In this document: piece after piece, positions 14,854 to 31,340 of the stretch
Numbering within the stretch: the stretch's first letter is position 1
Layout of the letters: every line of letters starts with the position of its first letter
Assembly (NCBI RefSeq): GCF_024228675.1
Contig: NZ_CP100461.1
Location: 2,353,398-2,417,397, forward strand
DNA length: 64,000 nucleotides
Direction: 5' to 3'
Origin: Salinigranum marinum
GTDB lineage: Archaea > Halobacteriota > Halobacteria > Halobacteriales > Haloferacaceae
Program-made: the position numbers and the translations under genes
The notes under the pieces: generated by a model
What the model was told of the DNA's origin: nothing
Database searches by the model: none
Seen by the model: only the letters and a program-made list of their open reading frames with translations

Positions 14854-14921
14854 TGGTGTGAGATGTAAGCGGATGGTTCATGGACTGCTCGCGACGGCAG
14901 CGCACTGTCGGTCGTCATGGG

Positions 14922-15353
14922 TCAGTCTTCCCCGCTGCCACGGCACACGACGACCGGGACCGTCGATTCTCTGACGATCTCGTCGGTAACGCTTCCGATC
15001 ACCAGTCGGTCTAATCCCGACCGGTCGTGTGTGCCCATCACGAGGAGGTCGATCCCCTTCTCGTCGGCGTACATCAGTATCGCGTCGGCCGTTGGTCCTC
15101 TGAGGACGGCCTCGATCGTCTCGATTCCATGCTCGGCGGCGACGCGTGTGGCAGCCTCGAAAGCTGCTCTCCCGCTCGTATCGGGATCGCCCCGAGCAGC
15201 CGCGTCCCCGGTCGTCGGTGGCGGCTCGTTCGCTTCCAACACGTAGACGACGTGGAGCGTGGCGTCGAACTGCGCGGCGATCGCCAGAGCGTGCTCGAAG
15301 GCCGCTTCCGCCGTGTCGCTGCCGTCGGTCGGATAGAGGACAGTCTCGTACAT
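14922..15353 (-). CDS. Universal stress protein (UspA family)
   Basis: 143 residues from the ATG at 15353, chosen because MYETVLYPTDGSDTAEAAFEHAL is the normal UspA opening; the longer frame adds unconserved residues. The nucleotide-binding segment near the C terminus is VMGTHDRSGLDRLVIGSVTDEIVRES, close to the G-2x-G-9x-G(S/T) pattern, followed by VPVVVCRG. It starts 2 nt after the stop of the gene at 15356-15706 and is followed at 68 nt by the APC-UspA fusion, so the three are probably one transcript acting in amino acid uptake under stress. Confidence 0.9.
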   Translation of the reverse strand: MYETVLYPTDGSDTAEAAFEHALAIAAQFDATLHVVYVLEANEPPPTTGDAAARGDPDTSGRAAFEAATRVAAEHGIETIEAVLRGPTADAILMYADEKGIDLLVMGTHDRSGLDRLVIGSVTDEIVRESTVPVVVCRGSGED

Positions 15354-15355
15354 GA

Positions 15356-15706
15356 TCACGTCTCGTTGATCGGACCGATGAGATCCCACTGGAGCGTCTC
15401 CTCCCCGTCAGGATGTCGAACGGAGCTCACGTGATACAGGTATGGCCCGTGTGGACACTCAGAACAGCCCTCCGCACATCGGTGTCCGCGAACGATTTCG
15501 ACGTATCCCTCGTGGTCAGTCACGCGAACGAGTTCGTGGTCGGGAATCGCCTCGATCTCTTGCTCCAACGCCTGGTGATGGTGTGCTTCGAGAACGTCTC
15601 CCAGGTAACTGATCGTCTCTCGGAGTGTGTGGTCGTCCAGTGTACGCAGTTGGGTCGCGACCCGGCGCGGAAGGCCCGGTGGAGGGGAGGGCGTATCGGT
15701 GCTCAC
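15356..15706 (-). CDS. Conserved small protein with a Cys cluster, unknown function
   Basis: 116 residues. The N terminus is Pro-rich, then a helical region (RRVATQLRTLDDHTLRETISYLGDVLEAHHHQALEQEIEAIPD) and a C-terminal part with GHRCAEGCSECPHGPYLYHVS, where C76, C80 and C83 and His residues could bind a metal. Not recognised beyond a haloarchaeal hypothetical. It precedes uspA by 2 nt, so the two are translated from one message. Composition is clearly that of a real haloarchaeal gene. Confidence 0.65.
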   Translation of the reverse strand: MSTDTPSPPPGLPRRVATQLRTLDDHTLRETISYLGDVLEAHHHQALEQEIEAIPDHELVRVTDHEGYVEIVRGHRCAEGCSECPHGPYLYHVSSVRHPDGEETLQWDLIGPINET

Positions 15707-16129
15707 GGGTTCACCTCGACAGCTGCTCGCTGGGTGACCGTGCTCTCCGCGTCCCGATCGCTGTCTCTACCGGGTCTGCGTATGGGGTGTTGTCACCCAT
15801 GACTGTCCCCTCCACCGCCTCGTACTTAAACGATTGCGTTCGTTCGACAGCGAGAACCACTCGGTCACGGACGTGACACAGTCTCCGTCGAGGAGCCAGA
15901 TATGATAAATATATGATCATTTTGCAACGGCTTAGGAGCTGTTACTGTCCGACTCCGGGGGATTCCGGGGGTCTCAGGAGGGTCAGCGCACGGGATCAGA
16001 GGCGTCCTCTGATCTGATTCCACGCGAGATGTCGGTCCGTATCAACGTTTATGACGATACGCCGACAAGGTCTGTGGGTAGATAGCACGAGTCGCACTCA
16101 CAGAGACAACCGCGTTCCACCGGGGGCCC
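15707..16129. other. Gap of about 420 nt with AT-rich segment
   Basis: Divergent space between the uspA operon and the BCCT stump. It has an AT-rich part (about 15898-15930, GATAAATATATGATCATTTT) that could supply a TATA box. No gene is seen. The missing front part of the BCCT gene is not found here. Confidence 0.35.
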
Positions 16130-16795
16130 GTGAGAGCGGTGGACGCGAGCGAGCGTCGCCTGTTCATCGCGCGTATCTCGAAGGGACGGACCGTCCGCGA
16201 GTTCGTCCTCGGGGTCATGTTCCTGCCGTCACTGTTCTCGACGCTCTGGCTGTCCGTCTTCGGCGGGAGCGCGCTGCACAACGCGCTCGTGGGGAACGGT
16301 GCTGCCCTCGTCACCTACAACGAGGTGGGCCAGACCGTCGCCATGTTCGCCATGCTGGAGCAGTTCCCGCTCGGTGCGCTCTCGGGTGTGCTCGCCACGT
16401 TGCTCGTGGTCACGTTCTTCGTCACCTCCTCTGACTCGGGATCGCTCGTCGTCGACCACCTGACCTCCGGCGGCAAGCACGACGTGCCGAAAGCACAGCG
16501 CATCTTCTGGGCCGTCACTGAGGGCGCGGTCGCCGCGCTCCTCCTGCTCGGCGGCGGCCTCAACGCGCTTCAGACGGCCGCGATCACCACCGGCGTACCG
16601 TTCGCGGTGATCCTCTGTCTGATGTGTTACACCGTCTATCTCGGACTCGACAACGAGTACCGGATCCTCGAATCCGAGGAGTTCGCCGAGACGATCGAAG
16701 AGTTGACCGAACAGGGCGACTTCGACATCGTCACGACGGGCGAGGGGATGGTGACCGACATCAGGGAGGGTGATGACACGCCGAGCGGCGACTGA
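16130..16795 (+). pseudogene. BCCT-family transporter, C-terminal stump
   Basis: 221 codons at most. From about residue 12 the sequence FIARISKGRTVREFVLGVMFLPSLFSTLWLSVFGGSALHN is the late-middle region of betaine/carnitine/choline transporters, and VVTFFVTSSDSGSLVVDHLTSGG is their conserved Ser-rich segment. The final two spans and a hydrophilic tail follow. Full BCCT proteins have about 500-700 residues and 12 spans; only the last four or five remain. The upstream sequence is unrelated, so this is 5'-truncated. No obvious IS end marks the break. Confidence 0.85.
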
Positions 16796-16852
16796 CGCTT
16801 TTCGGCGTTCGTGTCGCAAGCGGCACGGGACACCGTCGAACGGGCGGACTGA

Positions 16853-17611
16853 TCAGACAGCGTCGCGATCCTCGTCGCCCTCGAACGCTCGGATCGTCCG
16901 ATCCGGAATCGCCGTTCGCGCAAATATCGTGACCACGTCACCCGCCGCGATCGTGGTCTCTCCTTTCGGTGTGAGCAGCTCGTCTCCACGTTCGAGACCC
17001 ACCACGAGCACGTTCTCCAGCAGTCCGCTCTCGCTCGCCTCCTCGATCGTCTCTCCCGCGATCGGTGCCGAGTCTGTCACGGCGAATTCGACGACTTCCG
17101 CGCCACCGGACAGACGCTGAAAGTCGGTCAACGTCGCGCTCTGCTGCCCCTGGCCGGGAGCGAACGGGCCGTACGGCTGAGTGATATCGTCTCGGATCGT
17201 GTGTTCCGTCTCGATGTCGAGGCCGAGTTCCGACAGCTCCCGTTCGATGCGTGAGAGGTCGTCGGTGTCGGTGCTGACGACGGTGACGACCAGGTTTTCC
17301 CGACCCGAAAGCAACTCGCGAACCTCGACGACTCCCGAGATGGGGGCGATCTCTCGGCCCAGACGGGACCGATCCTCGACCGATGCTGTGCAGGTTATCT
17401 GTCGCTTCGTTCGCTCCCCGGTCCGTTCGTAGTTGACGTCGGCGTGGTAGCCTTCGATGACGTCGTCCTGTTCGAGCCGTTGAATGCGATGCCGGATCGT
17501 CGCGGGAGTCACGTCGACCGTCTCGGCGATCATCGGTGCCGAGATGTCCCGTGCGTTCTCCGTGAGGTGATAGAGGATGCGTTTGTCGATGTCGTCGAGC
17601 CGATCCGTCAT
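16853..17611 (-). CDS. Lrp/AsnC-type regulator fused to a TrkA-C (RCK_C) domain
   Basis: 252 residues. Residues 1-60 are an AsnC winged helix (LDDIDKRILYHLTENARDISAPMIAETVDVTPATIRHRIQRLEQDDVIEGYHADV). Residues 70-140 form the AsnC ligand-binding fold. After a linker, residues about 170-245 (AEVVEFAVTDSAPIAGETIEEASESGLLENVLVVGLERGDELLTPKGETTIAAGDVVTIFA) are a TrkA-C domain, which binds small ligands or nucleotides in transport proteins. Likely a regulator of a nearby transporter; the truncated BCCT gene is convergent with it. It is divergent from the zinc-ribbon gene at 17707. Confidence 0.9.
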   Translation of the reverse strand: MTDRLDDIDKRILYHLTENARDISAPMIAETVDVTPATIRHRIQRLEQDDVIEGYHADVNYERTGERTKRQITCTASVEDRSRLGREIAPISGVVEVRELLSGRENLVVTVVSTDTDDLSRIERELSELGLDIETEHTIRDDITQPYGPFAPGQGQQSATLTDFQRLSGGAEVVEFAVTDSAPIAGETIEEASESGLLENVLVVGLERGDELLTPKGETTIAAGDVVTIFARTAIPDRTIRAFEGDEDRDAV

Positions 17612-17706
17612 TGTGATATCTGATTCATGAATATCGAACGGGATTAATTTTGCCTTCGAAAATTGACACCCCTAGATTTATTAGAGTCACGAATGATACG
17701 TTCGAC
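17612..17706. promoter_or_regulatory. Divergent promoter region of the Lrp-RCK and zinc-ribbon genes
   Basis: 95 nt between two divergent starts. TTTATTA at 17676-17682 sits about 27 nt before the zinc-ribbon ATG (17707) and is a good leaderless TATA box. On the minus side the AT-rich stretch around 17636-17650 could serve the Lrp-type gene. Lrp proteins often bind their own promoters. Confidence 0.5.
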
Positions 17707-17910
17707 ATGGTTCACCGCGAAGAGGGAGCGACCCCTCTCGAACGACTGCAGAGTAGATACAACCACGAGGACATGAGATGTCCCGAGTGCGGATACGAGG
17801 ACGACGACGGAGAGTGGAAAGCGATGACCGATGGCAGTACGATCCTGTACCGTCACGTCTGTCCCAGCTGCGGTGAGATCCGAAAGCGAACGTACAGGGC
17901 CTCGAAGTGA
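17707..17910 (+). CDS. Small zinc-ribbon protein (HVO_0649-like)
   Basis: 67 residues from the ATG at 17707, supported by the TATA box 27 nt upstream. Two CxxC knuckles: CPEC (MRCPECGYEDDDGEW) and CPSC (RHVCPSCGEIRKRTYRASK), spaced as in haloarchaeal CPxCG-type zinc-finger micro-proteins. The lead TPLERLQSRYNHEDMRCPECGYED resembles the HVO_0649 family as I remember it. Such proteins are implicated in stress adaptation or regulation, with no defined biochemical role. Confidence 0.8.
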   Translation: MVHREEGATPLERLQSRYNHEDMRCPECGYEDDDGEWKAMTDGSTILYRHVCPSCGEIRKRTYRASK

Positions 17911-18751
17911 TCGACCCCGCGGAGCCGGCGCGATCCCTCAGGTAATGACACCGTCGCGCCAGATAACAAGGGCTTAGTGGTTGTCATACCGCTCGTGGTG
18001 CGGCTCGTGATCGAGGAGGCACGCCTGTCTGGCGGCGACACGGGCGACCGACAGGAGTCGACGCGTGTGACGGCCAGCCAATCGATCGCGGCGGCCAGTT
18101 TCCCCAACGATGTCCGGCCGGACAGGTTCGACGGAGGCCCCAGTGAACGCTCGGGAGACGGAGAACCAGCCACGGGTATTCGCTCCGATCGGCGGTACGG
18201 ACGTGCCCAGGCCGTACGGCTCGTTCGTCTGGAGACGCGGTCTCGTGACTCTTCGGTACTGGAGCCGAACCGGCAACGGCGACCGCGACCGAACGCGGGC
18301 CGACGCCGGGTGGGATGCCCCGGTATCGAACGGATCGGTGGTCGTGAGTGAGGAACCAACCAAGACCCCGTTCGACCAGGGAGTCGACTGGGATGTGCTG
18401 GTGGACCACCGGTCCGTTCCGTGATGCGGTATAGACGGCAGGTCCTACTCTGTCACACGAGTGTGTCAGCGTTTTCCACACCCCCGCATGTCCCCGCGAC
18501 AGAGCGTCGTGGATCGATCCGGAGTCGTCAGTGTCCGGGCCGGCGGGTCGCACTCCCGGCGGAGACCTCGAACCGAAACACCCAGTACGGCTCTCGACTG
18601 TTGAGGGACATGCGGAGTCGCGAAGTCTCGACAGCGGAAGGGTTCGCGAAGTACGGCTTCCTCACCGGGGGCGCACTCCCGGCGGAGTGTCGTCGGAAAG
18701 AGTCGAATCGCAAGCCGCTTTCTTAATACGTCGTCGACAATATGGAACCCG
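17911..18751. other. Gap of about 840 nt, no gene recognised
   Basis: Frames on both strands lack conserved motifs. A 15-bp direct repeat, GCACTCCCGGCGGAG, occurs at 18550-18564 and 18673-18687. TTCTTAATAC (about 18720-18729) is a TATA-like box 27 nt before the APC permease start at 18752. The rest is presumably decayed sequence. Confidence 0.4.
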
Positions 18752-20050
18752 ATGGCCGAGAAGATCGGACTCTTCGAGTCGGTTTCGATAGCCGTCGGTG
18801 GGATGGTGGGCGGTGGCATCTTCGCCGTGCTTGGCGTCGTCGCAGGTGCTGCCGGGCCGACGTCCTGGCTCGCCTTCGTCCTCGCGGGCGTCGTCGCGGC
18901 CTGTGCAGGGTACTCGTTCGTCAGACTCAACGACCTCATCGACGGGACAGGCGGCCCGATCACCTACATCGAGCAGTTCACCGGCAACACGACGCTCGCT
19001 GGGATGGCTGGCTGGACGTTCGTCATCGGGTACGTCGGCACCATGGGGCTGTACGCCTACGCCTTCGGCGGCTACGTCACCGAACTCATTGGCGTGAGCA
19101 CCGTGTACGGCGTCCCGCTCCGTCCGGTGTGGTCGCTGCTCGCGGTCGCGTCGTTCGTCGCGCTCAACGTTCTCGGCGCCCACGCCTCCGGTCGGACCGA
19201 GGACGTGCTCGTCGGCCTCAAGGTACTCATCCTCCTCGTCTTCGGTCTCGGTGGCACGTACTACGCGTTCTCGAACGGCGAACTCAGTTCGGGACTCTCG
19301 TCGCTTGGAGGGGGGCCGATCATCGCGGCCGCGATCGCGTTCGTCGCGTTCGAGGGGTGGGAGCTCCTCATGTTCGACCAAGACAGCATCGCCGAACCCA
19401 AGCGGACGGTTCGGAAGGCCATCTACCTCTCGATCGCCATCGCGACCGGTCTCTACGTGCTCGTCGCGATTCCGACGACGAACCTTCTCACACCGGCCGC
19501 GATCCAGCAGCACTCCGAAACCGCGCTGGCCATCGCCGCCGAGCCGTTCCTGGGACGGATCGGGTTCGTACTGATCTCCGTCGCGGCGCTGTTTTCGACC
19601 GGCAGCGCGCTCAACGCGACGTTGTTCAGCGCGTCACGGCTGTCCAAGCAGATGATCGCCGAGAACCTGCTCCCGCAGCAACTCGAACGCGACGACGGGG
19701 ACGAACCGGTTCGTGCGCTTTTGCTCTTAGGTGTGCTGACGGGAGGGCTCGTGACGGTCGGCAGCCTCAATGCCATCAGTTCGTTCGCCTCGCTCTCGTT
19801 CATCACCATCTTCGGTGCCATCAGCGCGCTCGCCCTGCGGGAGCGGTCGGGATGGCGGACGGCAGTCGTCCCCGCGATCGGCTCCGTCGGAGCGGTGGGG
19901 ACGACCGTCGCGTTGCTCTGGCATCTCTACGACACGGAGCCCGGCGTCTTCGTAACCGTTCTCGTGTTGGTGGTCGCCGTCGCGGGCGTCGAACTCCTCT
20001 ACTTCGAGCGCCAGCCGCTCGAAGAGTGGGTCGAAGCCGCCGAAGGGTGA
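18752..20050 (+). CDS. APC-family amino acid permease
   Basis: 432 residues with 12 hydrophobic spans. It opens LFESVSIAVGGMVGGGIFAVLGVVAGAAGPTSW, the APC first-span glycine motif that holds the amino acid carboxylate. FVAFEGWELLMFDQDSIAEPKRTVRKAIYLSIAIATGLY is the conserved span 6-7 region. Unlike the permease at 12478 it has no UspA tail and ends shortly after the last span. Start ATG chosen on the TATA-like box 27 nt upstream. Substrate not determinable; intact and apparently monocistronic. Confidence 0.9.
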   Translation: MAEKIGLFESVSIAVGGMVGGGIFAVLGVVAGAAGPTSWLAFVLAGVVAACAGYSFVRLNDLIDGTGGPITYIEQFTGNTTLAGMAGWTFVIGYVGTMGLYAYAFGGYVTELIGVSTVYGVPLRPVWSLLAVASFVALNVLGAHASGRTEDVLVGLKVLILLVFGLGGTYYAFSNGELSSGLSSLGGGPIIAAAIAFVAFEGWELLMFDQDSIAEPKRTVRKAIYLSIAIATGLYVLVAIPTTNLLTPAAIQQHSETALAIAAEPFLGRIGFVLISVAALFSTGSALNATLFSASRLSKQMIAENLLPQQLERDDGDEPVRALLLLGVLTGGLVTVGSLNAISSFASLSFITIFGAISALALRERSGWRTAVVPAIGSVGAVGTTVALLWHLYDTEPGVFVTVLVLVVAVAGVELLYFERQPLEEWVEAAEG

Positions 20051-20432
20051 GAGCCGGAACGGTTCGCCTCCCAAGCGCGGTGCTGAAGACGATGCGTGAG
20101 GGGTACATGTACGACCTCAACCGTCGGTACTACCGGCTCCGCCCGCCGAAGTGACGGGTGTAGGCGGTGGTGAAACGCCACGGTCGTGCGACCGCACCAC
20201 TGCCGCGATTCCGGAAGGGGCGGAGCGAGCAGCGCACCCGCGGTGTCGGTGAGTACGCACGGCCCGCCCGCTGTAACAACCACTTAGCCCCTGTTTTGGC
20301 TCAGTCCCAGACGAACCCACAGGGACCTCTCGAACCGCCGTGATCCGAAACCAGTACCGAGATTCGGCACCGGACGACGCGACCGCCCCAGTGAGTCGCT
20401 GTTCGGTCGGAGAACTCGAGCGATCAGTCGTG
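20051..20432. other. Gap of about 380 nt
   Basis: Contains an open stretch ending at 20154 that would give a short peptide, EGYMYDLNRRYYRLRPPK, following the APC stop. It looks protein-like but is too short to identify and may be the end of a lost gene. Nothing else is seen. Confidence 0.3.
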
Positions 20433-20663
20433 CTACTCGGTGAGCGGGAGGAAGATGCCGAACACGAACGGGGAGAGCAACAGCAAGAGAACGCCGATAA
20501 CGGCAGTATCCAACAGGAGGGCAGACTCCCACCCGGGAACGACCACCCATCCAACGCTCGCGGCGTATACGCCGATCTCGCCGACTACGAATAGTATGAG
20601 TCCGAGTACCATCCCCTGTTTCGTGAGTTTCGGATAGTTCAACTCACCGTATCGACCCGTCAT
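20433..20663 (-). CDS. Small two- or three-span haloarchaeal membrane protein
   Basis: 76 residues. The soluble start TGRYGELNYPKLTKQGM is followed by hydrophobic spans GLILFVVGEIGVYAASVGW and LLLDTAVIGVLLLLLSPFVFGIFLPLTE. The RYG.L.YP.LTK opening and the SPFVFGI..PL end are conserved among haloarchaeal small membrane proteins (DUF7860-like, from memory). No function is known. A minus-strand TATA-like GGTTAAGA lies about 28 nt upstream of the ATG. It is divergent from the gene at 20754. Confidence 0.7.
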   Translation of the reverse strand: MTGRYGELNYPKLTKQGMVLGLILFVVGEIGVYAASVGWVVVPGWESALLLDTAVIGVLLLLLSPFVFGIFLPLTE

Positions 20664-20753
20664 GCAACACGACAGTGCGAGCAGCAGAATCTTAACCGTT
20701 TCTCTTCCCCGGAATCGAAAGAATCTCTATCGGTGACCCAGTATGGGATAGCG

Positions 20754-21014
20754 ATGAAAACCGTCATGTTCGAACTCCTGCCGGCACTCCTGGAGTTGTT
20801 GGTCTTCGGAATCAGTAGCGTTGGACTGGCTATGATCGGTGCATACATCGAACGGTTCGCGCTCGCGACCGTGGAGGCCGGTCAACCGAGGCTCGCGGCG
20901 TGGGCCGCGGTTGTGGGCGCCGTTGCGTTCTACTTCGCGTACTTACTGAGTACCGACAAGTTCGGACCCAAGCTGTCCGAGGTTCGACGGAGACTCACGG
21001 ATCGGTCGGCGTAG
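20754..21014 (+). CDS. Small membrane protein, unknown function
   Basis: 86 residues from the ATG at 20754; a GTG at 20733 would add seven residues. Two hydrophobic spans (FELLPALLELLVFGISSVGLAMIGAYI and LAAWAAVVGAVAFYFAYLLS) are followed by a basic cytoplasmic tail (KFGPKLSEVRRRLTDRSA). Not recognised as a named family. Composition supports a real gene. Divergent to the other small membrane protein at 20433-20663, with about 90 nt between. Confidence 0.6.
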   Translation: MKTVMFELLPALLELLVFGISSVGLAMIGAYIERFALATVEAGQPRLAAWAAVVGAVAFYFAYLLSTDKFGPKLSEVRRRLTDRSA

Positions 21015-21120
21015 CGCGCGATCGATACCCGAACAGCCGCAGTAGGGCTCTGCATAGCACCCGCTGTCGGGCGGCCGGTACACGACACCGGCCGAGACGT
21101 CGAGTGAGGACGACTGGATC

Positions 21121-21912
21121 CCCGGGTGTATTTATCGCTTCGATCCGTACCCGACGCCGTTCGGGCCGCTCTCGGGGTTCAATGCCGCCTTCAGCGTCGC
21201 CGTCATCGGCGCGATCGCGAGCTTCGTACTCGTGGGTCTCCTCGTGGACGACCCACCGACCCTCGAGGCCGAGGCAGGTGAGGACCTCTCGATCCGCGTG
21301 TTCGACACCGACGGCTCGACGCTGTTCGACACCGTGTTCGTCCTCGGCGTCGGCACGTTCTTCATGGCGACGACGATTGCGCTGTTCGCCACGCTCGAAG
21401 GCCCGATACGCGCACGGCTGGACGAGAGCACGTTCCTGTTCAGCGTCCAGTTTGCGGCCGTGGTCATCGCGAACGTCCTGTTCCAGATCCCGATCGGTCG
21501 TGCAAGCGACACGTACGGCCGTCGGCCGTTCCTCCTCGCGGGGTTCGTCGTGCTCGTCCCGTCGGTGTTCGCGCAGGGACTCGTGACTGACCCGTATCTC
21601 ATGCTCGGTGCCCGGCTCCTGCAGGGGGTTGCGGTCGCCTGTGTCTTCGCACCGGCACTCGCGCTTGCGGGCGACCTCGCCAGCGAGGGACAGTCAGGGA
21701 CGACCCTGTCGGTGCTGACGATGGCGTTCGGGTTGGGTGTGGCCGTCGGACCGCTCGCATCGGGCTTTCTCTTCAACGTCGGGCGGTTCGAGACACCGTT
21801 CACCTTCGGGGCGGTGCTGGCGCTCATCGGACTCGTTCTCGTCTGGACGCAGGTCGAAGAGTCGCTTTCGGCCGATCCGGACGCACGCGCCGGACACCCC
21901 ACCGAGGACTGA
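21121..21912 (+). pseudogene. MFS transporter, C-terminal half only
   Basis: The open frame begins shortly before 21121 and encodes FGPLSGFNAAFSVAVIGAIASFVLVGLLVDDPPTL (end of span 6), a central loop, then spans 7-12 with the conserved second-half motif GRASDTYGRRPFLLAGF. The protein would end at about residue 226 counted from the GTG at 21232. The first five or six spans are missing and the sequence upstream is unrelated, so the gene is 5'-truncated. The retained half shows no frameshift, suggesting fairly recent loss. Confidence 0.8.
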
Positions 21913-22040
21913 TCCACCGCCGAACGCCCTGTCGGAAGGTGGCCACATGGACCACCGACGGGACGGAGTCGACCCACGATCCCCGCGGAGCCGGACACCG
22001 TGAGCCCGTCGCCCACCACCGCGACGACCGACGACCGGAG

Positions 22041-22259
22041 TTAGACGTCCAGTTCGACGATCTCGGTCGAGTGACAGTCCGGGCACGTGAGACGGTACCG
22101 GATGTGTCCGGACTTCGGCGTCGTTTCGACGTGCGCCTTCCACTCGCTGTGGAGGACGTAGTCTTCGAAGCCGCACCTGCGACACGTCTGTCGCGTGTGT
22201 TCGAGGTGTCTCGTGAGCGCACTGACCCCGTTCCGATGCTGTTCGGTAAACCAACTCAT
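22041..22259 (-). CDS. Small zinc-ribbon protein
   Basis: 72 residues from the ATG at 22259 (longer frame upstream is not protein-like). Four cysteines in two knuckles: CRRCGFEDYVLHSEW and LTCPDCHSTEIVELDV, with RHLEHTRQ before the first. It resembles haloarchaeal CPxCG-type micro-proteins and is a distant relative in layout of the one at 17707. Role unknown; probably RNA, DNA or protein binding. Confidence 0.75.
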   Translation of the reverse strand: MSWFTEQHRNGVSALTRHLEHTRQTCRRCGFEDYVLHSEWKAHVETTPKSGHIRYRLTCPDCHSTEIVELDV

Positions 22260-22391
22260 CGAGTCATCCGAGACGGGGTGTAGATTTAACGCTGGCGAGA
22301 ATTTGTCACACGGTAACACGACTCGCGTGGACCGGCCTCGCTCGGGCACGAAGGACCGGATCGCGGTGGGTGCCGGGAAACAGGGAGGGCG

Positions 22392-24182
22392 CTACGACGC
22401 CGCTTCGGCGTCCGCGCGGTGTGACACGACGTCCCAGTCCGACGGCGACAGTTCGTGTCCGTCGAAGTCGCCGTGTTCGGGATACGCGGTGAGGACGAGG
22501 TATTCGGCTCGGTCTGTCAGGTACTCCACGAGCAGATCGAGGTTGTCACCGGCGAGTCCGCCGAGTCCGTCGAGCAACAGGACCGGCACGCGCTCGGCCA
22601 CCTCGAACGCCTCGTGACCGGCGAGCGCAGCGACGATTCCCAGGAGTTCACGCTCGCCTTCGCTGAGCGCGTCGAGCCGTGCCTCGCGTCCGTCTCGCGC
22701 GACGACTAGGTCGAACGTGCTGGTGAGTCTGGCGGTCTCGAAGCCGGTCTCGAACCGTTCGAGTACCTCCGCGAGCGACGACGAAAACGCCTCCCTGGTC
22801 CGGCGTTTGACCGTCTCTTTGCGCGTTCGGAGATCCCTGATCTCCTGCGTCAACTCGTCGTACTCCTCGGCGAGTACCTCGCGCTGTGCCGCCCGCGTTT
22901 CGGCGGTCTCTAACTCCTCACGGGCGTCGGCCAACTCGGCCTCCGTGTACTTGATCTCGCTCTCGAGATCCGTGACACGGTCGTCGGTCGTCTCGATCTC
23001 CGTGGTGAACGATTCGATCCGTGACACCAGCTCGTCTCGACGCTGTCGCGCGTTCTCGAGCGTCTCCTCGTCTTCGGCACGTTGAGATCGGAGGTCGGTG
23101 AGACGGTCCTCGAGATCCCGTTCTCGGCGGGCGGCTGTGCGGGCCTCGTCGCGCTTCGTTTCGAGTTCCTCGACGCGCTCGCGGGACGCCGATGCATCCG
23201 CTCGGAGCTCAGAGATTCGAGCATCGAGGGCGTCGAGCTGTGTCTCCATCTCGTCGCGTGTCGTCGCCTGCCCGCAGAGCCAACACGCTGCTCTGTCGGA
23301 GAGCACCTCGTGTGAGACCTCGGTGAGAAGCGCGATCTCCCCTTCGTCGAGTACGCGTTTGTTCGCCTCGAACACCGACTGCAGGAGTTCCCGTTTGCGC
23401 TCGACGTCCCGGAGCTTCTCGTGGGTCGTCTCGAGTTCCTCCTCGAACTCCTCTGTCGATGGGACGGTCAGAGCGTCCAGTTCCGCCTCCGTCTCGGTAA
23501 GGCGCTCTCTGACGCGCTCGACAGTCGTTTCGAGCCGCTGGATGCGGGTCTCGACCCGCTCACGCTCGGCCCGGAGACTGCTCAGCTCTTCCCGGCGTGC
23601 GTCGTCCGTATCTGCCGTCTCGTCCTCGAGTTCGGAGCGGTCGACGCGCAGTTCTTCGAGCGTGGCTTCGAGCTTCGTCACCCGCTGTTGGAGCTGTGGG
23701 AGTCTCGACGCGGCGTCCGCTGCCCGCTGCCGCTCGGTTTCGACCTGATCCCGCTCGACGCGGATGTCGGCGATCCGTTCGTCGATGTTCTCGAAGTCGA
23801 GCGGGCGGGTCAACAGCTCTTCGAGGTTCTCCCCGTCGCGGACCGCTCGCCGGATCGCGTTGTCGTCGCCGAGGAACGCGAACAACTCCGCACAGATCAG
23901 ATCGTAGTCGTCACTCAGGTAGGGCGTTCCGGTCCGTGATACGGAGCCACTGCGTCGCGCGAGCTCGACGACGAACTCGTCGTCTTCGGTCCTCAGGGCG
24001 ACACGCCCGGTGTCCTGTCCCTCGGTGAGGGATGTCTCTGTGCCAAAGACGGTTTCGATGCCGGCGAGGAAGCTCGACTTTCCCTGCCAGTTACTTGCCC
24101 GCACCGCGTTGACTCCCGGCTCGATGACGGCCTCGGCACGTCGAATCCCGGCGATGTTCTCCAGAGAGAGCGTCCACGTCAT
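22392..24182 (-). CDS. Archaea-specific SMC-related ATPase with zinc hook (RdfA partner)
   Basis: 596 residues from the ATG at 24182, 2 nt after the stop of rdfA. N-terminal nucleotide-binding half with a Walker A-like ASNWQGKSS (residues 29-37). Two long coiled-coil arms (about 110-270 and 330-480) flank a Rad50-like hook with CWLCG. The C-terminal half carries LSEGERELLGIVAALAG (signature) and VPVLLLDGLGG (Walker B). This is the architecture of archaea-specific SMC-like proteins encoded next to RdfA. Likely a dimeric, DNA-associated ATPase; in Haloferax this gene pair is tied to cell-shape control (from memory). Start and spacing show tight coupling to rdfA. Confidence 0.85.
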   Translation of the reverse strand: MTWTLSLENIAGIRRAEAVIEPGVNAVRASNWQGKSSFLAGIETVFGTETSLTEGQDTGRVALRTEDDEFVVELARRSGSVSRTGTPYLSDDYDLICAELFAFLGDDNAIRRAVRDGENLEELLTRPLDFENIDERIADIRVERDQVETERQRAADAASRLPQLQQRVTKLEATLEELRVDRSELEDETADTDDARREELSSLRAERERVETRIQRLETTVERVRERLTETEAELDALTVPSTEEFEEELETTHEKLRDVERKRELLQSVFEANKRVLDEGEIALLTEVSHEVLSDRAACWLCGQATTRDEMETQLDALDARISELRADASASRERVEELETKRDEARTAARRERDLEDRLTDLRSQRAEDEETLENARQRRDELVSRIESFTTEIETTDDRVTDLESEIKYTEAELADAREELETAETRAAQREVLAEEYDELTQEIRDLRTRKETVKRRTREAFSSSLAEVLERFETGFETARLTSTFDLVVARDGREARLDALSEGERELLGIVAALAGHEAFEVAERVPVLLLDGLGGLAGDNLDLLVEYLTDRAEYLVLTAYPEHGDFDGHELSPSDWDVVSHRADAEAAS

Positions 24183-24184
24183 GC

Positions 24185-24937
24185 TCAGAGCCCAGGGACG
24201 AGGAACGCCTCCAGCAGCAACGATTCCTGGAGCAGGACGGTTTGTACGGCCTCGAGAACACCGTACGGCGTCGCGAGTCCGGAGAGCGTCGTCCGCCAGC
24301 GTTCTTTGGACGACGTTTCGGAGTCGGTCTCGAGGTGAGTCTCGCAGACGTACCCCCGGTCGACGGCCTCCTCGAACGGCACCCGGACGGAGCAGTCGGG
24401 GCACGTCAGTTTGACCTGCACCTGTACTTCCGCCCGCTCCGCGTTCGGCAAGCGCTCCTTCGACGAGAGCGAGGACAGCACGGACCGGGTTTTCTCAGCC
24501 GTCCGTTCACGGGCGAGCTGTACCGTGTTCGTCTCCCAATCCGTCGTCGCCGGGGTCGCGTCCTTCTCCGCGTCGAGACACCCTTTCAGGTGGTGACGCA
24601 TCGTACTCCACGACACGAGTTCGCGACCGAGGTCGTCGATGTCGAGTCCATCCGTCGCGAGGTCCGCCCCGAGTTCGTCCCGCTGGAGCGTCGACTCCCC
24701 CGTGATCAGTTCGTACTCCCGATCGAGATGAGCACTCATCGTGTCACGGCCGTGTGCCTCGTAGATCCGTTTGAGGAGTCGTTTATTGAACCACTCGGTG
24801 AGGGTTTTGTAGCCCTCCGCGGAACGTCCGTTCCGACCGGTCCACCGAGCGACCAGGAAGTCGTCGACAGAGTCGTATTCGGACGCAGCCACCGTGAGTC
24901 CGTGACGTTCGGTGAGCGTGTCGACTTTACATCCCAT
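24185..24937 (-). CDS. rdfA: RdfA-family protein (rod-determining factor A-like)
   Basis: 250 residues. N terminus CKVDTLTERHGLT, then VDDFLVARWTGRNGRSAEGYKTLTEWFNKRLLKRIYEAHGR and a helical middle (LDIDDLGRELVSWSTMRHHLKGCLDAE), as in RdfA proteins. Near the C terminus a CPDC...C motif (LTCPDCSVRVPFEEAVDRGYVCETH) suggests a zinc site. RdfA was named in Haloferax volcanii for its effect on rod formation; its homologues are typically followed by an SMC-like gene, as here. A TATA-like TTTATTA (minus strand, about 24972-24978) precedes the start. Mechanism unknown. Confidence 0.85.
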   Translation of the reverse strand: MGCKVDTLTERHGLTVAASEYDSVDDFLVARWTGRNGRSAEGYKTLTEWFNKRLLKRIYEAHGRDTMSAHLDREYELITGESTLQRDELGADLATDGLDIDDLGRELVSWSTMRHHLKGCLDAEKDATPATTDWETNTVQLARERTAEKTRSVLSSLSSKERLPNAERAEVQVQVKLTCPDCSVRVPFEEAVDRGYVCETHLETDSETSSKERWRTTLSGLATPYGVLEAVQTVLLQESLLLEAFLVPGL

Positions 24938-25717
24938 CGTCTTGTTCTATCCGAACGGTGGAGGTACCGACTAATAAACGTACGTACCGGCGCGGACGGA
25001 CGCAGTTGACATCCCGCGCTGCTGCCGATACCGACGCTCGGTCCCGACGCCTCGCCGACGGTGGCCGGAGTGGGTCGACCGATGCCCGGTCGGTGATCGA
25101 TTCCCCTGGGTGTCGGTCCGGCTGGGCCGAACGGTTCGAAATTCGATCCAGTACGCCAGAAGTATAATAATTCAGTAATACATATGTCTCTAGTAAATGC
25201 ACGACTACCAACGCGAAAACGCGGTCGTCGACGGGGATGGCCCATCCGGTGATGTGGGTCGACACCGACGTGCCGTTTAGTCAATGCCGTTCTGATAAAA
25301 TACATGAATTGGCCAAACATATTCGATATTCGTGCATTAGATTGCGTACGAGCGACCGTCGTTTTGTTCCTCGACCGTTTCGAGCCGATCGACCGGTTCG
25401 ATCACCCGTCCATGGACGTGTCATCGGTTGATCCGTGGTGGTGTCGTCGCTCCGTCGTTTGCGCTCTCGTTTCGACCACACTCGGGAGTGACCGATACTG
25501 AGTCGCACCACGTACGCATCGTGTACCGGGATCGGTTAACAATATATTTCTGTCATGTAATAGAAGGTGATTTATTTCTTTTATTTCTCTGCATATCAAT
25601 TTGTAGATGGTTACTCGGACGGCTGGTGTCCGGAGAGCGTATAACCGAAACAGCACGGCCGTCGGGGTCGACGAGGTGGTACCGCCGCCGGTTCGTGCCA
25701 CTCGCCGGAAATCGGCG
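24938..25717. other. Gap of about 780 nt, partly AT-rich
   Basis: Contains the rdfA promoter near 24970 and AT-rich blocks around 25160-25195 and 25530-25605. A 27-codon open frame from the ATG at 25198 is too short to call. No other gene is seen; the GC drop here suggests foreign or decayed sequence. Confidence 0.4.
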
Positions 25718-25987
25718 TCACTCCCGCCGTCGGGCCAGGAGCGATTTGTGCAGGAGATCCACCACGAGGACGGCCGGTGCCGCCGCGACGGCGAGGGCGG
25801 CGCCGACCAGCGGCGGTGGGGCGTGGCCGAGGAGCGACGCGAGCGGGTCGACGAACAGGAGCACCGCGAGGACGACGAGCCCCGTCAGGACCGATAGGAC
25901 GAGCGGTCTGTTGGACGTCCAGCCGAGCGCGCCCGGCCACTGCGTCGTGCTGCGGGAGGCGAACGCGTCGAGATCACACAGAATCAA
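25718..25987 (-). pseudogene. P-type cation ATPase, C-terminal stump
   Basis: About 85 codons on the minus strand: NRPLVLSVLTGLVVLAVLLFVDPLASLLGHAPPPLVGAALAVAAAPAVLVVDLLHKSLLARRR. This is the last pair of membrane spans of a Ca/Mg-type P-ATPase (cation_ATPase_C), where FNxRS precedes SNRPL. Preceding residues DAFASRSTTQWPGALGWTSNRP also fit. Full proteins have about 900 residues. Sequence breaks off at 25987, exactly where the TnpB element begins; no remainder is found beyond its other end (27370-27480). Confidence 0.8.
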
Positions 25988-25995
25988 GGAGGAAG

Positions 25996-26015
25996 CCCAC
26001 GACTTTAGTCGTGGG
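25996..26015. repeat. Left palindrome of the second TnpB element
   Basis: Nine-base arms CCCACGACT and AGTCGTGGG with a TT loop. Preceded by CAAGGAGGAAG, which parallels the solo copy at 12094. Confidence 0.75.
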
Positions 26016-26118
26016 AGGAATCCGACAAGGCTCGACGCAAACCACGAGCGATAGCAGCCCGACTCCCCACAACAGTCATAGAGTTTATAAAAATATCACT
26101 CCGAGTGTGGAGTTACAG

Positions 26119-27369
<1,251 letters not shown>

Positions 27370-27481
27370 CAGAGACAGGGAGACCGCAGCGGAGCGGTGA
27401 CGTCACCGGGACCAGCCCCGCGGTCGGACGACGACTGAATCGATCCAAAGGGTTTACTCCTCCGCCGTGGACCGACGCGTC

Positions 27482-28651
27482 ATGCGAGAGGTGTACGTCG
27501 TCGGCGCGGGGCAGTCCGACTTCGGCGCGTTCCCCGACGAGTCGTATCGATCGCTCTTCGCGACGGCCTTCGAGGCGGCGCTCGACAGCGTCGACGGAGA
27601 GTTGGACCGGACCGCGATCGACGAGGCGTTCATCGGGACGCTCGGCGTCGGCGGCCGACAGTTGGGGTTGAGCGGGCCGAGCGTCACCGAGTACGTCGGT
27701 CTGCACGGCACGTCGTGTACGCGCGTCGAGAACGCCTGTGCGGCCGGGGGGGCCGCGCTCCGGCAGGCCGTCGGGTCGATCCGCGCGGGGATGGCCGACG
27801 TCGCGCTGGCCGGTGGGGTCGAGATCATGACGGACATGAGCGGCGACCGCACCCGCTACTGGCTCGGAGTCTCGGGGGAGACGGAGTGGGAGCGGATGGC
27901 CGGGACGACGTTCGCGGGCGTCTACGCGCAGATGGCGGACGCCCACATGGCCGAGCACGGGACGACCCGCGAACAGCTCTCGCGGGTCGCGGTGAAGAAC
28001 CACGCCAACGGGGCGAAGAACCCCCACGCGCACCTCCGGTTCGAGTGCTCGCTGGACGACGCGGTCAACGGGACCGCGGTCGCGGCGCCGTTGAACCTCT
28101 ACGACTGCTGTCCCACCTCCGACGGGGCGAGCGCCGTCCTCCTCGCCAGTCGCGCGGTCGCCGAGGGACTGACCGACGACCCCGTCCAGGTCACGGGGAG
28201 CGGGCAGGCGAGCGGTCGCGTGGGGCTCTTCCAGCGACCCTCGCTGACGAGCGTACCGGCGACGAAGGCGGCGGCCCGACAGGCGTACGACGACGCCGGC
28301 GTCGGTCCCGCCGACATCGACTTCGCGGAGGTCCACGACTGCTTCTCGATCGCGGAACTGATCGCGTACGAGGATCTGGGCTTCTGTGAGACCGGCGAGG
28401 CCGGCGCATACGTCGAGTCCGGGGCGACCGATCCCGACGGGGAACGGCCGGTGAACCTCTCCGGCGGGCTCAAGTCGAAGGGCCACCCGATCGGCGCGAC
28501 GGGCACCGGACAGACCGTCGAGGTGTTCAAACAGCTCCGCGGCGAGGCGGGGGACAGACAGGTCGCGGGGCTCGAACGGGGGCTCACACACAACGTCGGC
28601 GGGTCGGGCGGCGCCGTCGCTGTCCACGTCTACGAGGGGGGATGGGCGTGA
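27482..28651 (+). CDS. Thiolase-family acyl-CoA acetyltransferase (SCP-x type)
   Basis: 389 residues from the ATG at 27482, 27 nt after a TATA-like TTTACT. Catalytic Cys86 lies in RVENACAAGGAALRQA, the HDCFS motif in EVHDCFSIAELIAYEDLG, and GGLKSKGHPIGATGTGQ carries the second histidine. Archaeal thiolases of this type form a complex with an HMG-CoA-synthase-like protein and a DUF35 zinc-ribbon protein, and exactly those two genes follow with overlaps of 10 and 1 nt. Likely role: condensation or thiolytic cleavage of a 3-oxoacyl-CoA. The different substrate range of this copy is inferred from its catabolic surroundings. Confidence 0.92.
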   Translation: MREVYVVGAGQSDFGAFPDESYRSLFATAFEAALDSVDGELDRTAIDEAFIGTLGVGGRQLGLSGPSVTEYVGLHGTSCTRVENACAAGGAALRQAVGSIRAGMADVALAGGVEIMTDMSGDRTRYWLGVSGETEWERMAGTTFAGVYAQMADAHMAEHGTTREQLSRVAVKNHANGAKNPHAHLRFECSLDDAVNGTAVAAPLNLYDCCPTSDGASAVLLASRAVAEGLTDDPVQVTGSGQASGRVGLFQRPSLTSVPATKAAARQAYDDAGVGPADIDFAEVHDCFSIAELIAYEDLGFCETGEAGAYVESGATDPDGERPVNLSGGLKSKGHPIGATGTGQTVEVFKQLRGEAGDRQVAGLERGLTHNVGGSGGAVAVHVYEGGWA

Positions 28652-29598
28652 ACGCGATCGAGAGCGTCGGGGTGTACGTCCCCCGCCATCGGATCACGGC
28701 CGAGACGATCGGCGAGGCGTGGGACGGCTTCCGCGCGCGCGGCGTGGGGGAGAAACGCGTCGCCGGCGCGGACGAGGACGCGGTGACGATGGCCGTCGCC
28801 GCCTGCAGGGACGCAATCGCGGCCTCGGGGACCGACCGTGACGCGTTCGGAACGCTCGCCGTGGGGACGACTACCCCGCCGATCGACGAGGGTGACGTCG
28901 GCGTCACGGTCGCCGAGATCCTCGGTCTCGACGCGGGCGTCGACGTCGCGGTGTTCACGCAGTCGACGCGCGCTGGGACGAGGGCGGTCCGGGCGGCGCT
29001 CAGTGCAGGGGAGCCGGCGCTGGCAGTCGCGGCCGACTGCCCCCGGGGGACACCCGACAGCGCCGTCGACCACGCGGCGGGGGCGGGTGCCGTCGCCGTC
29101 GCGACCGGCGACGACGGCGCGACGGTCGGCGAGCGCGCGACGTACGCCCAGGAGTATCCCGGCACCCGCTTCCGCCGGCGTGGCTCCGAGGACGTGGAGT
29201 CGTACGACGCGACGGCGTACGAGCGCGACGCGTACACCACGGTGATCGGCGGTGCGGTGGCGGAGCTGTCGGAGCCGGCGACCGCGCTCGCACCGACCGC
29301 GCCGGACGGCTCGCTCCCCGGTCGCCTGCGGGGCGTCGTCGACGGTGGCACGGTCTACCACCTCGCCGACGAACTCGGGGACACGGGGGCGGCCAGCCCG
29401 CTGTTCGGCCTGCTCGCCGCGTGGGCGGCCGGCGAGGACCGCGTGACGGTCGTCGGCTACGGCGCGGGGGCGAGCGCGGATGCGCTCGTCGTCGAGGGCT
29501 CGCTGTCGGTCGAGTGGCGGCGGCCGGCGACAGACATCACCTACGCCGAGTATCTCCGCAAACGCGGGCACGTCCTCCCGAACGGGGGTGACAACTGA
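28642..29598 (+). CDS. HMG-CoA synthase-like protein lacking the catalytic cysteine
   Basis: 318 residues, thiolase fold. The opening AIESVGVYVPRHRITAETIGEAW and LAVGTTTPPIDEGDVGVTVAEILGL match archaeal HMG-CoA synthase and KAS III-like proteins. Where true synthases have the nucleophile in a CxxGT segment, this protein reads VFTQSTRAGTRAV (residues about 103-115), with no Cys. The usual C-terminal GYGAGASADAL region is kept. The protein overlaps the thiolase gene (10 nt) and the DUF35 gene (1 nt), so it probably serves as a partner in the thiolase/DUF35 complex rather than as an HMG-CoA synthase. It is also shorter than normal synthases (about 350-400). Confidence 0.8.
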   Translation: MGVNAIESVGVYVPRHRITAETIGEAWDGFRARGVGEKRVAGADEDAVTMAVAACRDAIAASGTDRDAFGTLAVGTTTPPIDEGDVGVTVAEILGLDAGVDVAVFTQSTRAGTRAVRAALSAGEPALAVAADCPRGTPDSAVDHAAGAGAVAVATGDDGATVGERATYAQEYPGTRFRRRGSEDVESYDATAYERDAYTTVIGGAVAELSEPATALAPTAPDGSLPGRLRGVVDGGTVYHLADELGDTGAASPLFGLLAAWAAGEDRVTVVGYGAGASADALVVEGSLSVEWRRPATDITYAEYLRKRGHVLPNGGDN

Positions 29599-30017
29599 TG
29601 GGTGCGTACCTGAGCGTCCCGACCTGGTGGCGCACCCTCGACGGACGGTATCGGCTCGTCCTCGGCGAGTGTGCGGCGTGCGGCGGCTACACGTTCCCGG
29701 CGGAGGGTGCGTGCGTCGAGTGCAACGCGGTCGGCACGCTCGAACCGGTCGAGCCGTCGGGCGAGGGCGAGATCGTCGCCCGCACGGTCATCGAGGGGGG
29801 CGCGCCACCGGAGTTTTCCCGCCTCGTCGACGCCGAGGGAGCGATCGGCGTCGTGGTGGTGGAACTCGACGAAGGCGCGCGTGTCCCGGGCATGCTGACC
29901 GATTGTGACCCTCACGCGGTCGGCCGTGGCCACCGGGTCGAGGCGGTCGTCCGGCGGATCTACGAACAGGAGGGCATCGTCCGGTACGGCGCGAAGTTCC
30001 GCCCGATCGAAGGGTGA
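29598..30017 (+). CDS. Zn-ribbon OB-fold (DUF35) acyl-CoA-binding protein
   Basis: 139 residues. The zinc ribbon is GECAACGGYTFPAEGACVECNAVG (two CxxC pairs, residues about 25-45), followed by an OB fold (GEIVARTVIEG...IGVVVVELDEGARVPGMLTDCDP...VEAVVRRI). DUF35 proteins bridge thiolase and HMG-CoA-synthase subunits and bind the CoA of the shared intermediate. TGATG overlap with the previous gene makes a three-gene operon. FRPI near the end is the normal finish. Intact. Confidence 0.92.
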   Translation: MGAYLSVPTWWRTLDGRYRLVLGECAACGGYTFPAEGACVECNAVGTLEPVEPSGEGEIVARTVIEGGAPPEFSRLVDAEGAIGVVVVELDEGARVPGMLTDCDPHAVGRGHRVEAVVRRIYEQEGIVRYGAKFRPIEG

Positions 30018-30135
30018 AATAGGCGCGGAGACGGCCCCGCGCACGGGTCGGCCGGCCGCGTGACGACTATGATACTCGATATCTATCATTAATTTTCTAA
30101 TGGTATAGGATCCGAGAGCTACAGGCAGATCGGAC

Positions 30136-30151
30136 AGTAATAGATATTACT
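30136..30151. repeat. 16-bp palindrome
   Basis: AGTAATA and TATTACT with a GA spacer, in the AT-rich gap after the thiolase operon. Possible operator or transcript end. Confidence 0.5.
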
Positions 30152-30361
30152 ATCTGGATTCAACTACACCGAGCGACCGAGACCAGCGAAAGAGAAACGG
30201 ATCCAATGTCGAGCGGTCACGGCCGCGAGTGAACTCAGTCACTCTGAGCCGTATCGTTCGAGCGTATCACCAATTTTCTATCGATGTCGTCCGTCGTGTC
30301 GCAACCGGTCGATTCCGACAATTAGTCTAATTACTTCTATAACAAATGTCCCCGAGAGAAC

Positions 30362-30387
30362 TGATTACAACTGTACAACTGTAATCA
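30362..30387. terminator. Palindrome downstream of the ICL/PEPM gene
   Basis: TGATTACA (30362-30369) and TGTAATCA (30380-30387) flank a central TGTACA. It starts 24 nt after the stop of the minus-strand gene at 30411, so its transcript would form a hairpin. Archaeal termination mainly needs U tracts, so this is tentative. Confidence 0.35.
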
Positions 30388-30410
30388 AACAGCGCCTGAC
30401 TGTCTAGCTG

Positions 30411-31340
30411 TCACTCGACGTCGTGGCCGGTCGTGCCGTCGTACTTTTCCAGAGCCGCCGCGGGGAGGTACCGCCGCTCGATGTCGGCGATCTCGGACAT
30501 CCCGGCGAGCTGGTGGACGCTGTCGAACGACTCGGCGAACGCCGCCTCGTTTTCGAGCAGGACGCTCACGCCCTCGTCGTGGAACCGTTCGATCGTCTCG
30601 CGGATGGCCAGCACCGTCGCCGTCATCACGAGGCGGCCGTAGAGGACGATGTCCCACCCCATCGCTTCGAGTTCGTGCGGTTCGAGCCGCATCGCGGTTC
30701 CCGAACACGGATACAACAGTCGCGCGTCGACCTCTCGCCCGACGCGCTCGGCCTCCGCGCGGCTCTCGGGCACCTTGACGAAGACGACGTCGGCACCCGC
30801 CTCGGCGAACGCGGTGGCGCGCTCGATGGCGTCGTCGATCGTTCCCCCTGCTGTTCGCCGGACGTCGGTTCGGGCGATGATCACGAAGTCGGGGTCCCGC
30901 TCGTCGCGGGCGTCGACGGCGGCTTCGACCTTGCCGACGGCCTCCTCGAAGGGGATCACCTCGACGCCTTTCACGTCGCCGTTGCGTTTGGGGAACGTCT
31001 GGTCCTCGATGTGGATCCCCGCGACCCCCGACTTGACGTACTCGCGGACCGTCCGGACGACGTTCGTCGCGTTGCCGTAGCCGTTGTCGGCGTCGGCGAT
31101 GACGGGGATGTCGACCGCTTCCTGGGTGTGTTTCGCGTGGTCGACCATCTCGGTCATCGTGACGAGACCCGCGTCCGGGAGGCCCGCCCTGGAGATCGCC
31201 GATCCCGACCCGGTGAGTTTGACCGCGTCGTACAGCCCCGTCGACTCGACTACCCGCGCGCTCAGCGGGTCGTGGACGTCGGGCGTGACCAGGATCTCGT
31301 CGGCCGCAAGGCGCGCACGAAGCGCTCGACCGTAGTGCAT
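30411..31340 (-). CDS. ICL/PEP-mutase superfamily enzyme with Asn in place of the catalytic Cys
   Basis: 309 residues, a (beta/alpha)8 enzyme. The Mg-binding DADNGYGN is at 83-90 and IEDQTFPKRNG at 111-121. In lyases of this superfamily (methylisocitrate, dimethylmalate) the same loop reads PKRCGH; here Cys is replaced by N120. PEP mutases and phosphonopyruvate hydrolases also have Asn in that loop, so the reaction may be a phosphonate or other alpha-keto acid conversion rather than lyase cleavage. TATA-like CTATAC (minus strand, about 31366-31371) is about 28 nt upstream. It is closest to the enzyme at 50454, which keeps the Cys. Confidence 0.85.
   Translation of the reverse strand: MHYGRALRARLAADEILVTPDVHDPLSARVVESTGLYDAVKLTGSGSAISRAGLPDAGLVTMTEMVDHAKHTQEAVDIPVIADADNGYGNATNVVRTVREYVKSGVAGIHIEDQTFPKRNGDVKGVEVIPFEEAVGKVEAAVDARDERDPDFVIIARTDVRRTAGGTIDDAIERATAFAEAGADVVFVKVPESRAEAERVGREVDARLLYPCSGTAMRLEPHELEAMGWDIVLYGRLVMTATVLAIRETIERFHDEGVSVLLENEAAFAESFDSVHQLAGMSEIADIERRYLPAAALEKYDGTTGHDVE

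Follow-up and report, generated by a model that had tools for sequence, protein, structure and literature searches.

An RdfA-ASRP gene pair of Salinigranum marinum belongs to a patchy haloarchaeal subclade linked to additional EMC3-type and SecY genes

Haloarchaeal genes for RdfA and for SMC-like (structural maintenance of chromosomes) proteins frequently lie side by side: across 24 haloarchaeal genomes, 42 of 54 RdfA genes have an SMC-like neighbour, and 42 of 50 SMC-like genes have an RdfA gene next to them (PMC10869688). The adjacent rdfA-sph3 genes of Haloferax volcanii (HVO_2174-HVO_2175) form such a pair, and the rods of Haloferax require both (PMC10869688). Sph3 has also been called plate-promoting (PMC13286277), contrary to that report; we prefer the reading of PMC10869688 because it derives from mutant data, confirmed in PMC11276520. 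The ASRP family, which includes the Sulfolobus coalescin ClsN, combines a zinc hook with terminal Walker motifs (PMC9389158; NF045487). Here we analyse an RdfA-ASRP pair in a 64,000-nucleotide stretch of Salinigranum marinum DNA (hereafter the window; NZ_CP100461.1, positions 2,353,398 to 2,417,397), situated on the 4.0-Mb contig, the main chromosome, of the genome denoted G000. Pairs of this kind are already known; what is new is the linkage of the subclade to insertase (EMC3-type) and translocon (SecY) genes, and for a SecY, EMC3 or DUF106 linkage to the pair in haloarchaea we found no report in the open-licence literature.

As the original prediction had it, the pair at 22392-24937 is complete: both frames are open and begin with ATG, with rdfA first and ASRP second on the reverse strand, separated by 2 nt (24183-24184). 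The 250-aa product is assigned to RdfA by PF21811 (132.1 bits; Pfam gathering score 27) and the 596-aa product to ASRP by NF045487 (462.7 bits; curated NCBIfam cut-off 300). A single scan of GTDB contigs yielded 23 relatives at 45-70% identity; an adjacent rdfA is present in 23/23 and a full-length ASRP in 22/23, the ASRP frame of locus L059 ending 65 bases short of the contig end. The Walker A-like site and the Rad50-type CWLCG hook recognised at the outset are both present, and Walker A, the CWxCG hook and the LSEGE signature are retained in the 22 full-length relatives, indicating that these motifs did not arise by chance. In SMC and ABC ATPases the catalytic Glu, the base, is expected directly after the Walker B Asp; among the ASRP relatives this position is mostly Gly, the exceptions being Glu (L044, L076), Gln (L058, L081, L108), Asn (L054, L107) and Arg (L084, L109, L113-L115). 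Rad50 carries a CxxC hook between two coiled coils, and the window ASRP shares a CxxC hook; it differs in that its best score against the Rad50 models (36.4 bits for NF041034, 26.5 for NF041035) lies far below the cut-off of 1000 bits and its adjacent gene is rdfA. Its score against the SMC_prok_B model (33.6 bits) is likewise below the cut-off of 567, and no PDB sequence relative was found at E ≤ 0.001.

The rdfA-sph1 pair of Halobacterium salinarum (pNRC200; L085) resembles the window pair in adjacency and gene order, and its ASRP shares the P-loop (ASNFQGKS), the LSEGE signature, a hook (CFVCG) and the DG after Walker B. It differs in sequence (the aligned 78% of the query is 41% identical), in branching outside the window group and in its intergenic gap of 104 nt rather than 2. 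Compared by published description, rdfA-sph3 of Haloferax volcanii is likewise an adjacent pair of an RdfA-family and an SMC-like gene (PMC10869688), whereas the subclade that includes the window pair is patchy. For the ASRP family as a whole, PMC9389158 describes no apparent flanking-gene consensus; in contrast, the haloarchaeal loci read here have an adjoining RdfA gene, and those of the window subclade often have EMC3-type and SecY genes after the pair. Orientation varies elsewhere: in L081 (a Halalkalicoccus plasmid) the two genes diverge instead of sharing one direction, and in L108, L109 and L113, which group with L081, the RdfA frame apparently lies on the strand opposite to the ASRP match.

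Phylogenetic analysis of 51 ASRPs (with no SMC or Rad50 rows) placed the window protein and 18 relatives (~62-71% identity) on one side of a branch supported at 90/87 and in 93% of 200 bootstraps. A close group defined at ≥63% identity occurs in 19 of 391 genomes from 11 genera, G000 included; ASRPs of the close type (60-80% identity) were found in six plasmid records; in all, 128 plasmid records match ASRP and 86 match RdfA. The subclade of the window pair is patchy among haloarchaea and often plasmid-borne. Class-wide, 77 of the 391 genomes hold an ASRP match at E ≤ 1e-120, giving 88 matches; an in-frame stop interrupts two of these (in G329 and G121), both outside the close group. In comparisons of rdfA and ASRP with four relatives, the first codon position differs in 18-22% of codons, the second in 13-18% and the third in 52-57%. 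These codon and conservation data indicate past constraint on the family. The initial suggestion that survival of the pair reflects selection stands for the family in this sense; selection on the window copy within its current host is beyond what family-level data can demonstrate.

A frequent gene order characterises the subclade: rdfA, ASRP, a 72-aa zinc finger, sometimes TBP or DUF7860, an EMC3_TMCO1 protein and SecY. The EMC3-type protein (DUF106) matches PF01956 with 135 bits and the linked SecY matches PF00344 with 233 bits, and permeases, universal stress proteins, phosphate or sulfate transporters and antiporters are also encoded around the pairs. Among 18 close loci (L037-L047, L056, L058 and L075-L079; the downstream flank of L039 covers 1.5 kb), the EMC3-type gene is present in at least 16, the zinc finger in at least 12 and SecY in at least 10. 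The 16 more distant loci (L048-L055, L057 and L080-L086) hold EMC3 in none and SecY in one, the Haloferax plasmid L084; permease, antiporter and stress-protein genes are also present at the distant locus L086. All these locus counts are lower bounds, because the reference sequences came from L075-L079, L084 and L086 and the flanks spanned 5-8 kb.

Whole-genome counts gave a similar picture, some loci and some genomes in the two sets being the same organism. A second EMC3-type gene (E ≤ 1e-100) occurs anywhere in the genome in 17 of 19 close genomes versus 11 of 372 others, and in 15 of the 19 this extra copy is located downstream in the same orientation, no more than 3.5 kb away. A second SecY (E ≤ 1e-170) occurs in 11 of 19 close genomes versus 5 of 372 others (G155, G158, G193, G270 and G109); it lies 2.7-4.2 kb downstream on the same strand in at least nine close genomes, and upstream on the opposite strand in L044. 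Four of the 11 other genomes with an extra EMC3-type gene (G155, G158, G193 and G270) encode an ASRP of 52-54% identity with the extra gene 10-13 kb upstream, and two (G121 and G380) carry the ASRP on another contig.

In a SecY tree of 31 rows, 5 of them partial, the extra copies fall at two places. One clade unites those of Natrialbaceae, Halohasta and G345 (support 100/99; 93/95 with Haloferax), and the other comprises those of Haloarcula, beside Haloarcula's own housekeeping SecY. A single source of all extra SecYs finds no support, as the tree requires two changes. This arrival of SecY twice at the same spot favours a functional link over hitch-hiking. Alternatively, a single original extra SecY could have undergone gene conversion by the Haloarcula housekeeping copy.

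The window genome encodes three RdfA genes above the Pfam cut-off and two ASRP genes above the NCBIfam cut-off, and a count of RdfA-ASRP pairs gives two. The second pair lies on contig C2 (G000:C2:156774-158750; L004/L136), and its ASRP scores 710.8 bits against NF045487. A widespread type, this C2 ASRP has matches in 158 of 194 genomes (E ≤ 1e-100). Its P-loop site reads GRNATNRTS in four ASRPs of the genus (L004 and L062-L064) and in 29 of the 30 best-scoring loci (L137-L165 included), the P-loop of one being left unassigned; its signature is LSESER instead of LSEGER in 30/30 of these loci, and rdfA lies in the same stretch in 23/30. The window ASRP is therefore this genome's ASRP with canonical ATP-binding motifs, while the C2 type, lacking a canonical P-loop, may be a pseudo-ATPase. 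The C2 pair is the likelier counterpart of a housekeeping pair. Among congeners, a second ASRP (53% identity) is encoded by G003, and G001 and G002 have the C2 type only (E ≤ 1e-30). Neither a degenerate ASRP Walker A or P-loop nor an ASRP pseudo-ATPase was found reported in the open-licence literature; 13 of 111 ASRP candidates were dropped for divergence or missing motifs in PMC9389158, so P-loop-less types may be missing from that study. The third RdfA gene (G000:C1:1476306-1476869; L035) has no ASRP above cut-off nearby. The proposal that another, essential RdfA might render the window copy dispensable is half borne out: two further RdfA genes exist, which might be essential.

Upstream of the window rdfA lies a TATA-like element (Table 1), and the pattern [CT]TTA[TA][TG]A at -35 to -41 of rdfA is present in 20/20 close-group upstream sequences and 2/13 others, a pattern composed after viewing the sequences, several of the 20 being near-identical. 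An operator palindrome over this element was considered and dropped: a repeat with 8-bp arms occurs in L078 and one with 6-bp arms in L039 only, and in the other 18 close sequences the best repeat lies elsewhere or does not exceed that of shuffles. The window RdfA, at 250 aa, is longer than that of several other groups (~205-215 aa). It comprises a helical N-terminal domain (~1-120), a long helix (133-159), a zinc-ribbon-like part and a C-terminal extension of ~40-50 aa, which is absent in L052-L055 and L057 and different in L048-L051. The residues of the zinc-ribbon-like CxxC...CxxH (C179, C182, C198 and H201) are invariant in alignment A1 (24 sequences). An AlphaFold (AF2) model built from 24 sequences has a mean confidence (pLDDT) of 69; residues 1-120 are all helical, with 82-95 per ten-residue block, and values are low beyond ~160.

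We consider it slightly more probable than the contrary that the window pair forms an accessory operon of RdfA and ASRP genes in the main chromosome, encoding a clamp and its adaptor that supplement the C2 pair and whose ancestral job concerned the envelope or the nucleoid. The zinc hook would dimerise ASRP, and the two ASRP ends would build an ATP-binding head. Judging from its motifs, ASRP probably binds ATP, with slow hydrolysis, which would yield long-lived closed clamps, because Walker A and the signature are intact while Gly follows the Walker B Asp. Co-translated RdfA would serve as a dedicated ASRP adaptor that brings the clamp to DNA or to the envelope, and the window pair would supplement the widespread-type pair, whose ASRP is without a canonical P-loop. 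Since in relatives the pair is accompanied by a spare EMC3/Oxa1-type insertase, and often by a spare SecY too, its ancestral job was probably to act on envelope or nucleoid state in cells loaded with island membrane proteins; in the window genome the insertion partners are absent, and the pair and its zinc finger are retained.

A more specific version, which we advance tentatively and regard as possible but clearly less probable, treats the subclade as a mobile cassette in which an ATP-binding, zinc-hook RdfA-ASRP clamp would be combined with an EMC3/Oxa1-type insertase of its own and with a second SecY, in the company of permeases and stress proteins. Through its clamp, such a cassette would link the organisation of nucleoid or envelope with bulk membrane insertion, and the window copy would be its descendant on a chromosome, devoid of the insertion genes. 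Several RdfA-ASRP pairs occur in haloarchaea, and the four Haloferax Sph genes have differing, even opposing, mutant phenotypes. Two testable contrasts emerge from the present comparison, namely that between the P-loop-less widespread and the canonical accessory ASRP, and the occurrence of the accessory type with spare EMC3 and SecY genes. If this linkage is functional, an SMC-like clamp would be tied to membrane-protein insertion.

Several observations weigh against the accessory-operon interpretation. The window genome contains no extra EMC3 or SecY gene, one of each being recovered at housekeeping scores, so the linkage is not present here. An extra EMC3-type gene is lacking in G000 and G176, lies on another contig in G094 and, together with SecY, occupies a different 7.6-kb contig in G345; no second SecY occurs in 8 of the 19 close genomes; and G021, G154, G195, G274 and G306 carry an extra EMC3-type gene without a window-type ASRP. 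The Fisher p values of 1.5e-20 (EMC3) and 4e-13 (SecY) are uncorrected for kinship. The window zinc finger scores 35.3 bits against NF041911, below the cut-off of 70. The binding of RdfA and ASRP to each other is a prediction, and a fold search with the RdfA model gave no PDB match at E ≤ 0.001, the best VIA Z being 2.9; as pLDDT is low in the zinc ribbon and the C-terminal tail, this result bears on no fold assignment for RdfA.

The described Haloferax phenotypes raise the alternative of a cell-shape switch resembling RdfA/Sph3, in which the pair would promote rods and the window copy would tune shape conditionally. Hfx. volcanii without rdfA or sph3 forms disks only, and overexpression of Halobacterium Sph1 in Hfx. 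volcanii produces rods (PMC10869688); the window ASRP scores 353.7 bits against that Sph1 (L085) and 161.4 against the C2 type. However, loss of Sph2 leads to rods, loss of Sph1 or Sph4 leaves a near wild-type shape, and the sph4 mutant swarms poorly and forms more rods in exponential phase (PMC11276520), while a patchy subclade found in 19/391 genomes is unlike a core shape factor. We regard this switch as rather unlikely for the window copy. The association of RdfA with cell shape on which the original prediction drew is published for Haloferax (PMC10869688) and extends to the window pair by homology only.

We find it similarly doubtful that the pair is a DNA-handling clamp, with ASRP taking part when genome copies recombine or undergo gene conversion with one another, and RdfA as its DNA-side partner. 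The Rad50-like hook of ASRP fits such a role, as does the reduced survival of all four Sph deletions of Hfx. volcanii in a gene-conversion assay, together with the finding that sph2 and sph4 could not be deleted together (PMC11276520). The scores of ASRP far under the Rad50 and SMC model cut-offs argue in the other direction, and no annotated repair nuclease or helicase lies within 8 kb in five close plasmid loci.

The surroundings of the pair (Table 1) bear on a further alternative, that of a relic in a decaying island, with the pair merely not broken yet. The MFS, BCCT, SulP and cation-ATPase neighbours are fragmentary, and the EMC3 and SecY partners are absent, the respective reference genes having no match in the window. 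DNA of window 14900-32000 gave no more than scattered matches in the three congeners, and these 17-kb surroundings are kept as one block in no congener examined (best 40 candidates per genome in both cases). Nevertheless, both frames are unbroken, as are all motifs, the zinc finger downstream and the TATA-like element, and codon-position divergence points to past constraint, which makes a relic improbable. Decay of the whole region was ruled out for the zinc finger, DUF7860, the universal stress protein and both permeases. With these intact companions beside it the pair is not a lone survivor, and the initial picture of a decayed region with broken neighbours is half right: it holds for the four transporter and ATPase fragments and fails for these companions and the holin-like gene. 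The zinc finger matches its L078 neighbour in phmmer (105 bits, 65% identity), and homologues follow the pair in most subclade members.

Table 1. Positions of the gene pair, its motifs and neighbouring genes in the window
Feature	Position	Strand	Remarks
rdfA-like gene	24185..24937	-	250 aa, ATG start, open frame
ASRP/Sph-family SMC-like gene	22392..24182	-	596 aa, ATG start, open frame
TATA-like element TTTATTA within ACGTTTATTAG	24972..24978	-	first base 41 nt upstream of rdfA start codon
Walker A ASNWQGKS (ASRP, N-terminal)	24075..24098	-	[GA]xNWQGKS in 22 full-length relatives
Zinc-hook motif CWLCG (ASRP residues 300-304, mid-protein)	23271..23285	-	CWxCG in 22 full-length relatives
ABC signature LSEGER (ASRP, C-terminal)	22650..22667	-	LSEGE in 22 full-length relatives
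Walker B region VPVLLLDG (ASRP, C-terminal)	22566..22589	-	Gly after Asp
Zinc-finger gene, 72 aa	22041..22259	-	132 nt downstream of ASRP gene; intact
Truncated MFS transporter, N-terminal half	21232..21912	+	remnant; PF07690 positions 2-185 of 347
DUF7860 gene	20433..20645	-	PF25259 86 bits, cut-off 27; intact; companion in several relatives
APC-family permease	18752..20050	+	PF13520; intact; 62% identity to L079 APC permease; companion in relatives
BCCT transporter fragment, C-terminal part	16130-16795		
Universal stress protein (USP)	14922..15389	-	intact; companion in relatives
APC-USP permease	~12517-14862		intact; related to near-pair genes in relatives
Holin-like gene	12137-12385		intact; related to near-pair genes in relatives
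SulP transporter fragment, C-terminus	9727-10299		
Cation-ATPase fragment, C-terminus	25718-25987		

A defence or plasmid-competition module resembling the Lamassu, Wadjet or Septu ATPases is very improbable: ASRP gives weak PADLOC matches (best LmuB, E 7.8e-14, mostly coiled coil), matches to both proteins occur in the plasmid records counted above, and a gene of the Fic family (L075) or one with a PIN domain (L084) is situated some kb from the pair, but at E 0.01 PADLOC returned nothing for RdfA, the zinc-finger relative or the EMC3-type protein, and most annotated neighbours in five close plasmid loci encode transporters or metabolic enzymes or are hypothetical genes. The genes adjoining the window ASRP are rdfA and the zinc-finger gene.

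No tRNA gene was found in the window. Next to the cation-ATPase fragment, an open reading frame on the forward strand (25777-27369) contains OrfB_IS605 and Cas12f1-like TNB (TnpB-type) domains. On the reverse strand at 16853-17611, a TrkA-C domain is joined to an Lrp/AsnC-type regulator. A short tandem repeat at ~31871-32100 translates as repetitive RRGDEE/GEEEKG-like peptides in several frames.

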